Of a stretch of 64,000 bases of DNA, positions 20,777 through 22,123 are shown one piece after another. The position numbers and the translations under genes are program-made. Position 1 is the stretch's first letter. Each line of letters begins with the position of its first letter. The stretch is taken from NCBI GenBank assembly GCA_000697355.1, contig JNEN01000861.1:62001-126000 (forward strand). The letters are read 5' to 3'. The notes beneath the pieces were generated by a model. That model saw only the letters and a program-made list of their open reading frames with translations. It made no database searches and was not told the origin of the DNA. Source of the DNA: Syncephalastrum monosporum B8922 (Eukaryota; Mucoromycota; Mucoromycetes; Mucorales; Syncephalastraceae).

Positions 20777-21039
20777 ACAAAGATGTACACGCCGTGTAGC
20801 AACTCAAAAGTTTATTCTAGGCATAATAGAGCGGTGTTACACGGTGTTACACGGTTACTCCGATACTCAGATTACCATAGAATCATTACAATGTCTACCT
20901 CTTCATGTTGACAATGGACTCTTCCACTTCTTTTCTTTTCACCCACCCAGCACAGCACCTGCCGCAGCACTCACACTCACACGCGTCATTCTCACCTGAC
21001 GCCTGAGAATGAAAAATATTTTCACCAGCGCGAGACCTC
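20777..21039. other. Intergenic upstream of the candidate RNA gene
   Basis: No coding frame seen. It contains a short near-duplication (GGTGTTACACGGTGTTACAC at 20832 onward) and tandem CACTC-type repeats near 20962. Confidence 0.4.
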
Positions 21040-21090
21040 ATTGGCTGCAGATAAAAAATTTTCGCGCTCAGGTGTCAAAAAACTATATAA
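21040..21090 (+). promoter_or_regulatory. Inverted CCAAT box and TATA box
   Basis: ATTGG (inverted CCAAT) at 21040-21044 and TATATAA at 21084-21090, 44 bp apart. The TATA box lies 59 bp before the first strand of the closing helix proposed for the downstream RNA. This is the clearest promoter-like pair in the window and it does not precede an open reading frame. Confidence 0.55.
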
Positions 21091-21139
21091 ACGCGTCTTT
21101 TTTTCGCCTCTCTCGCTTTTCTTTTCTTTTCTTTATTCA

Positions 21140-21413
21140 ATTTGTGGAGGGTGTCCCGGGGTTTGGCAGGCCCTACGACCCAATGAAGCAGACAAGCCGA
21201 CTGCTAAACTAAACTACCGGGCTTGTATAAAAACAAACAGGGAGGAATGTGAGGGCCACTTCCCATGAGGCCATGCCAGGGCCGAAGACGGGTTCCGGTT
21301 TGGGCACGAGTCCCAAAGGGTGGAAGAGGATCGACGGGTGCCCATCTCCAAGCGATGGTCCTCGGGCAACGGACTACCTTCGGGTAGGACGGCTAAGAGG
21401 CACCCATTTTTTT
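21140..21413 (+). ncRNA. Candidate structured non-coding RNA, class unassigned
   Basis: A GC-rich island of about 270 bp without a credible coding frame, packed with perfect short hairpins: AGCAG/CTGCT (21187-21205), GGGAGG/CTTCCC with one G-U (21240-21264), TTTGGG/CCCAAA (21299-21317), CCATC/GATGG (21342-21358), GTCC/GGAC (21358-21374) and CTACC-TTCG-GGTAG, a UUCG tetraloop (21374-21387). The 5' GGGTGTC (21149-21155) can pair with GGCACCC (21399-21405) to close the whole; GGGTGCC at 21336-21342 competes for the same strand. An A-rich hinge lies at 21228-21239. The molecule ends in a run of seven T (21407-21413), as at Pol III ends. I looked for signatures of U1-U6, 5S, tRNA, nuclear RNase P/MRP and a telomere template and did not find them. 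Ends are approximate. Confidence 0.5.
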
Positions 21414-22123
21414 ATGCAAAAGTACAAATGATAAAAAACAATAAAGAGAGGGAAAGGCGGGTAATTTCTTTTTTTGGTTTTCATGCACAGCACGACGCGT
21501 CTTTTGTGCCACCCTTTGAGTGGTTGAGGAGATTCTTGCTTTCTTTTTCTTGCTGCTTACCATGTTTTGAAAGAAAGAGTTCCTTGAGCATGCTCAACGG
21601 TCGGTTCTCTTTTTTAAAGGTGTTCTGATGCCTGATTCTTGTAGGTCATAGATTCACACAAAGACATGTCTCATTTCGCGTTGCATGAAGCACAACTCAA
21701 ACCGAATGCAAGAGGCCGAACACTACCCTTTCCTATTACCACAGCAAAACAAATTACTCTACCGTTTGATAAACATGATTTCCTGCTGCATGCTCACACT
21801 TAAGCATACAGGAATAATATACCGCATAAAACGAAGTGGAACCCACGGACGTCGACTCCAAGTTTTGCCTGCGGTAGCAACCGGAATTACTGGTCAAGAC
21901 CAAAGTGCCTGTCAAATCGATTCCACAGAGATCATGATAATGGAGACGCACACACACACACACACACAAAACAGCATAGCAAAGGCAATGTCCAAAAATA
22001 TTCTGGAAGAGCACGACACTGCCTCATAAGCGAAAAAGCAGTTCCCAGGACAAGTGAAGAGGACAGCAAGTGAACACGCCTAGTCTCTCCCTTCGACGAT
22101 CTCAGCTTGACAACACTGTGCAG
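21414..22123. other. Intergenic between candidate RNA and poly(A) polymerase gene
   Basis: Probably contains the promoter and the first, unlocated exon of the Trf4-like gene. A dinucleotide repeat lies at 21949-21968. No other frame is convincing. Confidence 0.4.
21949..21968. repeat. (CA)n microsatellite
   Basis: Ten uninterrupted CA units. Confidence 0.9.

Follow-up and report, generated by a model that had tools for sequence, protein, structure and literature searches.

What RNA, if any, is made from a GC-rich island that has promoter elements in front of it and a run of seven T behind it? The question is raised by positions 21040 to 21413 of the window, a 64,000-nucleotide stretch of the Syncephalastrum monosporum B8922 genome (contig JNEN01000861.1), in which an original prediction, made from the letters alone, had seen an independent, unclassified RNA gene. 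That observation is partly confirmed: the independent gene stands, and its key part, a predicted self-cleaving ribozyme, had been missed.

Genomic HDV-like ribozymes have jobs that are best known from retrotransposons. A ribozyme that forms the most conserved part of a promoter-bearing, multi-copy gene would be given a role, namely 3'-end formation, and such a role is testable within one organism. The reading that we consider quite likely is that the locus belongs to a dispersed family of noncoding RNA genes, with a CCAAT-TATA promoter, a T-run at the end, and a 3' HDV-like ribozyme that frees an RNA of about 190 nt.

HDV-like variants are already known from fungi. The available text of one report counts 230 of them in 26 species, with an extra nucleotide, usually C, between P2 and P3 (PMC5640933). 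According to the same text, two-piece constructs of the Penicillium chrysogenum and Aspergillus niger variants cleaved in vitro at the expected HDV site, and the gene associations of the variants were widely variable, with no role assigned.

Landmarks of the locus

Most of the landmarks that had been read from the window are there. The inverted CCAAT box, the TATA box and the seven-T run are all present (Table 1), with 59 bp from TATATAA to the GGGTGTC at 21149, and the hairpin with a UUCG tetraloop is found as CUACC-UUCG-GGUAG at 21374-21387, inside the GC-rich stretch. The lack of coding potential also holds up: the minus-strand frame that spans 242 aa in the window reaches no more than 152 aa in the other nine copies compared; an upstream minus-strand protein gene was rejected because the reading frame is not kept across copies.

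An excess of folding stability is not supported: the fold of 21090-21420 has a z value of +0.30, and 61 of 100 shuffled sequences fold at least as well. The folding energy is ordinary, and therefore hairpin counting alone proves nothing. A 7-bp helix that was thought to close the island, GGGTGTC (21149-21155) with GGCACCC (21399-21405), can indeed be drawn in the window, but it is not a conserved feature, with seven of seven pairs in 8 of the 16 window-type copies tested and 5 or 6 pairs in the other copies. The better-kept partner of GGCACCC is GGGTGCC at 21336-21342 (P2 of the ribozyme), which keeps all seven pairs in 13 of 16 window-type copies; one of the three misses, L017, carries a 1-nt deletion there. 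The object is judged real because of conservation and covariation in paralogues, which were invisible to the original prediction.

Across the whole window, no Rfam family reaches its cut-off. A divergent RNase P or MRP RNA had been suggested, but the genome has its RNase P RNA gene at another place (C132, 104.2 bits), and the single match of the MRP model is below cut-off and falls on the same C132 place. For the suggested snoRNA, no snoRNA family of Rfam matched at this locus. Identity of 21040-21413 with RNase P, MRP, SRP or U6 RNA was likewise rejected, the Rfam models matching other places. The word “unclassified” is thus wrong for the 3' third, which is an HDV-like ribozyme, and right for the upstream body.

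An HDV-like ribozyme fold at the 3' end

At a relaxed threshold, 21326-21405 matches positions 1-74 of 74 of RF02682, the HDV ribozyme of Faecalibacterium prausnitzii, at a score of 29.2 bits and an E value of 0.0021 for the 651 bases. This is the window's best Rfam match; RF02682 differs in being bacterial, and its gathering cut-off is 44 bits, a value that even the best of 20 loci scanned (34.8 bits) does not reach. The Rfam comparison proposed with the original prediction as a check thus yields an HDV ribozyme, but under the curated cut-off. Matches to Rfam HDV models were found at 16 of the 20 loci, the window included (15 to RF02682 and one to RF00094), with E values of 0.009-0.84 at a threshold of E<=1 and all below the gathering cut-off; L048, L052, L055 and L059 have no match to these models at E<=1. 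Besides the ribozyme, a search of 20950-21600 at E<=10 returned a single chance-level lncRNA match downstream.

Judged by its sequence, 21326-21405 is a complete HDV-like self-cleaving ribozyme, and cleavage is expected between 21325 and 21326. The fold is a nested double pseudoknot of 26 pairs, made of P1 (7 bp), P2, P3 (3 bp), P1.1 (2 bp) and P4, and it was followed through an alignment of an 85-nt region in 20 copies (12 of them distinct; 18 window-type and 2 of a diverged type). Over the 12 distinct sequences, 99.0% of the cells are paired, compared to 32-47% for slid versions of the fold. Seventeen cells are changed on both sides, while shuffles that retain the relatedness of the copies give a mean of 4.5, and none of 500 reaches 17. 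Six pairs carry such double changes, a number that 13 of 500 shuffles attain, and the count of further pair types is not above the shuffles (388 of 500 reach the observed value). The covariation is confined to P1 and P2; P3, P1.1 and P4 show little or no variation in the 20-copy alignment. One mismatch in P2 is seen in L015 and L016.

The C at 21393, which we take to be the active-site residue from the role of the J4/2 C in the HDV class, stands in GGCTAAG or GGCAAAG in all 20 aligned copies; L059, which lies outside this alignment, has GGCACAG. The extra nucleotide between P2 and P3 is C or T in all 20, the cleavage-site pair is G-C in 10 and G-U in 2 of the 12 distinct sequences, and P4, examined for the loop E motif of the fungal variants, has a possible tandem G-A step.

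A model made from the 20 copies gives the window copy 115.8 bits (this copy being itself among the training sequences) and finds two copies that it had not seen, L048 (85 bits) and L059 (76.9 bits). The same model has zero matches among the 10 searched of 12 unrelated loci that carry the core pattern. One exact core DNA pattern has 0 matches in a collection of viral contigs and 0 in a collection of non-eukaryotic genome contigs.

Table 1. Predicted features of the RNA gene, in window coordinates
Feature	Position	Strand	Basis or remark
Core unit (promoter, RNA body, ribozyme, gene end)	20788..21480	+	common to most window-type copies; blastn and alignments of 18 window-type loci; limits approximate, varying among copies
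Inverted CCAAT box	21040..21044	-	ATTGG; 45-47 bp before ATATAAA
TATA box TATATAAA	21084..21091	+	ATATAAA/ATTTAAA in 16/18 window-type and 0/4 diverged copies
CT-rich tract	21105..21137	+	sequence and copy comparison
RNA body, predicted 5' cleavage product of ~190 nt	21138..21325	+	no Rfam match; little covariation
5' domain of body GGAGGGTGTCCCGGGGTTTGGCAGGCCC	21146..21173	+	by-eye comparison; likely diverged-family counterpart GGAGCATCCCGGGATTGCAGGCCC
HDV-like self-cleaving ribozyme (by sequence)	21326..21405	+	RF02682 match; covariation in 20 copies; own model
P1 5' strand	21326..21332	+	pairs with 21357-21363; double changes in 4/7 pairs; pairing in 100% of cells
P2 5' strand	21336..21342	+	pairs with 21399-21405; double changes in 2/7 pairs; pairing in 97.6%
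Extra C between P2 and P3	21343	+	alignment; as in fungal HDV variants (available text of PMC5640933)
P3 and loop L3	21344..21356	+	21344-21346 with 21354-21356; invariant in 12 distinct sequences
P1.1	21348-21349 with 21364-21365	+	invariant in 12 distinct sequences
P4, UUCG loop in window	21370..21391	+	same helix longer in diverged family, still a hairpin
Predicted active-site C in J4/2 (GGCTAAG)	21393	+	invariant in 20/20 aligned copies
T-run, predicted Pol III terminator	21407..21413	+	directly behind ribozyme
3' gene-end element AGTACAAATGATAAA, 15 bp	21421..21435	+	behind T-run

Copies in the genome

The genome itself (27.5 Mb in 198 contigs, with the window on contig C93) holds many relatives of the locus. 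The core pattern occurs at 33 places, 21 of them HDV-like and 12 others, compared to 10 for the reversed control. A DNA search with the segment gave 22 match rows, which correspond to 18 window-type loci (the window included, with those on C91 and C136 split in two rows) and 2 of the diverged type, and a search with the diverged type added L048 on C134 and L059 on C189. This makes at least 22 loci with the ribozyme region, 18 window-type and 4 diverged, a count that leaves out matches covering this region at C115:163717 and C104:224413. The 17 further window-type copies, most with promoter, RNA and T-run, bear out the idea of an independent RNA gene with its own promoter.

Neighbours of the copies are unrelated to each other and include Utp14, TBC, F-box, G-patch, chitin synthase, STE12-like and other proteins, as seen in Pfam scans of 20 of the 116 flanking frames of at least 150 aa. 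Most of the displayed copy borders fade and differ from copy to copy. Some copies are incomplete: L020 is without the promoter and 5' body, and L024 is without the 5' body. L012 and L019 are short copies with the core alone in common, and L009 has an abrupt right end. In its promoter part, at -494 to -131 relative to the ribozyme, L024 is 91% like L023 and L025, while the alignment of L024 with L011 extends much further, for about 1.2 kb (-835 to +434 in L011 coordinates), at 76%. The mosaic look of some copies would fit core exchange by gene conversion.

The flanks of the window copy recur at C117:30345-30996, C90:222948-224205 and C154:283041-283294, outside the ribozyme loci found by the core pattern. 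The copy L059 (C189:238500-239400), with its changed core and no T-run, is perhaps a pseudogene.

Promoter, body and gene end

In 16 of the 18 window-type copies, ATTGG (ATGGG in L024) precedes ATATAAA or ATTTAAA by 45-47 bp. At the other end of the gene, a T-run of at least 6 is present in all 18 at a nearly constant place, and the 15-bp element behind it has no mismatch in 12 copies, one in 5 and three in L018. Allowing one mismatch, AGTANNAATGATAAA is found in 17 of the 18 window-type copies, whereas none of 3984 pieces of 95 nt drawn at random from the window has it. Besides the ribozyme, the diverged family retains the inverted CCAAT box, while the TATA box is missing and the 3' element is poor, with 4-5 mismatches in an ungapped comparison of the four copies. 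Their T-runs are 5, 6, 5 and none (L059), so that three of the four have at least 5. A splice donor, GTAAGT, behind the diverged ribozymes was considered and dropped; by eye it is perhaps a decayed 3' element instead. An exact AATAAA lies downstream in 6 of the 18 window-type and all 4 diverged copies.

Around the promoter, ACGCGTC boxes at 20981-20987 and 21091-21097 (the latter just behind the TATA box) are kept in most window-type copies; they resemble fungal MCB cell-cycle boxes. Several copies also have, by eye, a 13-bp inverted repeat, CCTGAGAGTGAAA upstream and TTTCACTCTCAGG downstream of the CCAAT box, which is imperfect in the window copy (region 21002-21072).

To profile conservation along the gene, pairwise identity was averaged in 40-nt windows across 16 window-type copies, all but L020 and L024, which lack the 5' body. 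The highest values, 0.92-0.95, lie inside the ribozyme. Identity is 0.79-0.91 in the windows from 21010 to 21190, that is, from the CCAAT box to the 5' body, and 0.63-0.74 across most of the body, which is better conserved at its 5' end; downstream of the ribozyme it drops from 0.79 to 0.51. The lower values at 20970-21030 (0.41-0.69) arise at least partly because a fixed cut 360 nt upstream trims the copies with longer bodies. Alignment folding of the body found covariation in 3 of the 55 pairs of subfamily A, in none of the 79 of subfamily B and in 1 of the 43 of the diverged family. Being the least conserved part of the transcript, with faster change than the ribozyme and little covariation, the body may not be the useful product. 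As far as its sequence goes, it remains unclassified, and our most likely guess is that the released RNA of about 190 nt would be a stable RNP-type RNA.

Signals shared with U6 and RNase P RNA genes

The 15-bp element has 23 exact sites in the genome, and its reversed control has 0. Twelve of the 23 are ribozyme loci, and three lie 20-24 nt behind the U6 genes on C141 and C149 and the RNase P RNA gene on C132. Another is found directly behind a T-run, 146 nt past a weak RNase-P-family match (C104:302803-302922; 120 nt, 28 bits, at cut-off), which could be the MRP RNA, although the MRP model did not pick C104. The exact site on C57 was rejected as a gene-end element, being a chance match at a splice donor, and the remaining six are on C19, C86, C142, C179, C181 and C183. 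In this genome-wide list of 23, no exact element belongs to the U6 genes on C36 and C102 or to the SRP-like gene at C183:150111. The T-run is followed by the element after 8 nt in the U6 genes on C141 and C149, 9 nt on C104 and mostly 7-8 nt in the ribozyme genes.

The likeness to these genes of the same genome thus lies in the TATA box and the AGTATAAATGATAAA element (two of four U6 genes and RNase P), and it divides by gene: U6 has the T-run, and the RNase P RNA gene has a CCAAT box, in the other orientation, 45 bp before its own ATATAAA. This equal CCAAT-TATA spacing was counted in favour of the gene-family reading; a CCAAT at the 45-bp spacing is absent in both U6 genes examined. The U6 and RNase P genes differ in having no ribozyme and in making other RNAs, and the RNase P gene has the 3' element without a preceding T-run. 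A 15-T run lies between TATA box and RNA start in the RNase P RNA gene (L062 93-142), a feature that points to a late start or to Pol II there. The 15-bp element (window 21421-21435; also in L061, L062 and L064) is possibly a gene-end or promoter signal of a gene class.

How the RNA might be made

In the mechanism that we favour, the CCAAT-TATA promoter would start a transcript near 21113-21140, and transcription, most likely by Pol III, would end at the T-run. The last 80 nt before the T-run would fold as an HDV-like ribozyme as soon as they are made and would cut before G21326, freeing the body RNA with a 2',3'-cyclic phosphate end and stripping the ribozyme and U-tail from it. What the sequence itself shows is the ribozyme fold with its covariation, the conserved promoter and T-run, the multiple copies and the gene-end element common to some U6 and RNase P RNA genes; transcription and its start site, the polymerase, actual cleavage and the 5' RNA as the useful product are what we infer. 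Cleavage is likely here because fungal HDV variants cleaved in vitro, as the available text states (PMC5640933). The promoter, the T-run and the 3' element of the U6/RNase P type together suggest a Pol III-type gene that removes its own U-tail. By the signs of a Pol III gene with an external promoter, the window-type copies have a TATA box in 16 of 18 and a T-run in 18 of 18; the 4 diverged copies, which have no TATA box by the pattern used, count against this reading.

The choice of polymerase is where the strongest rival lies. A capped Pol II transcript, with the ribozyme as built-in 3'-end maker and terminator and the T-run incidental, is unlikely, and of the rivals it is the one to take most seriously. 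CCAAT box, TATA box and CT-rich tract are all typical of fungal Pol II promoters, and the downstream AATAAA would suit such a gene. A T7 run and TTTT runs lie between the TATA box and the body in the window, which would be awkward for Pol III if the start is early; these T-runs, together with an RNase P gene that has none before its element, keep Pol II in contention. The T-run of all 18 window-type copies, so nearly constant in place, and the gene-end element, which two U6 genes carry about equally far from the T-run, speak for Pol III instead. The copies could also be imagined as a non-autonomous retroelement like the trypanosomatid Pr77/SIDER, with promoter and HDV-like ribozyme and spread via a LINE. 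Their dispersal beside unrelated genes would fit, as would the core-only copies and the abrupt right end of L009, and HDV-like ribozymes are common in such elements according to the available part of PMC4035085. We nonetheless think this improbable: 0 of 35 reverse-transcriptase matches (the counts being lower bounds) lie near any of the 22 ribozyme loci, and on C181, the only contig in common, the two are about 153 kb apart. Also, most of the displayed borders fade and differ between copies, and within the unit the ribozyme is placed at the 3' end, with a T-run right behind it. In the Pfam scans of 20 of the 116 flanking frames, there was no reverse transcriptase and one DDE transposase frame (L018). 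A LINE origin was rejected on the missing reverse-transcriptase neighbours.

Two further rivals concern what the ribozyme is for. The fragment left after cleavage (80 nt, with a 5'-OH and a U-tail) could be the working product, acting for example on other RNAs, with the body as leader only. The ribozyme is indeed more conserved than the body, but conservation extends to the 5' end of the body, which has a likely counterpart in the diverged family, and known HDV-like ribozymes act in cis; we hold this to be more doubtful still than a retroelement. Decay is the least credible of all: a once-active family reduced to relics would account for the changed core and missing T-run of L059, the incomplete L020 and L024, and the P2 mismatch of L015 and L016, but hardly for the double-compensated changes in P1 and P2 across copies or for a ribozyme identity far above that of the body and the downstream sequence.

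Relation to known ribozymes

The ribozyme class and its fungal variants are already published. The window's ribozyme has the HDV fold and the extra P2-P3 nucleotide of the fungal variants, but its cleavage-site pair is G-C, whereas C-G is typical of them in the available text, and it stands at the 3' end in a family of promoter-bearing RNA genes, whereas their gene associations vary widely (PMC5640933). The R2 and L1Tc/Pr77 ribozymes are alike in being HDV-like ribozymes in dispersed elements, and Pr77 likewise couples promoter and ribozyme; as far as the available parts of these reports go, the R2/L1Tc ribozyme makes the 5' end of its element (PMC3774820, PMC4035085), whereas in the present family it would produce the 3' end of an RNA, and no reverse-transcriptase match lies close by. 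A Pol III-type gene family with an HDV-like ribozyme at its 3' end was not found in a search of open-licence literature, as far as those texts were available, and within that scope a multi-copy, promoter-bearing RNA gene ended by an HDV-like ribozyme, with U6/RNase P-type signals, looks new.

A bolder reading is that the ribozyme is the regular 3'-end maker of a Pol III family in the style of U6 and RNase P, that the RNA is of a new class, and that AGTATAAATGATAAA is a new signal. We hold it tentatively and lean slightly against taking it whole. If it were true, each transcript would remove its own U-tail, and an RNA with a cyclic phosphate would escape the usual U-tail-binding pathway. Also, the released RNA would be a new abundant class of noncoding RNA of early-diverging fungi, and AGTATAAATGATAAA would be a new gene-end signal of the U6/RNase P-style gene class. 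One could consider the 15-bp element common to U6 and RNase P genes as a handle for finding small-RNA genes in this lineage.

Other observations

A DDE_3 transposase frame (L018 5756-7069) lies about 1.1 kb upstream of a ribozyme copy. Elsewhere in the window, the protein encoded at 107-1786 on the minus strand makes a Mucoromycota-like fungus likely as the source: among the best 120 of 8000 scored candidates it is closest to three proteins without a name (86-87%) and then, where entries give an organism, to those of Mucor atramentarius (81%), Jimgerdemannia flammicorona (77%) and Rhizophagus irregularis (73%).
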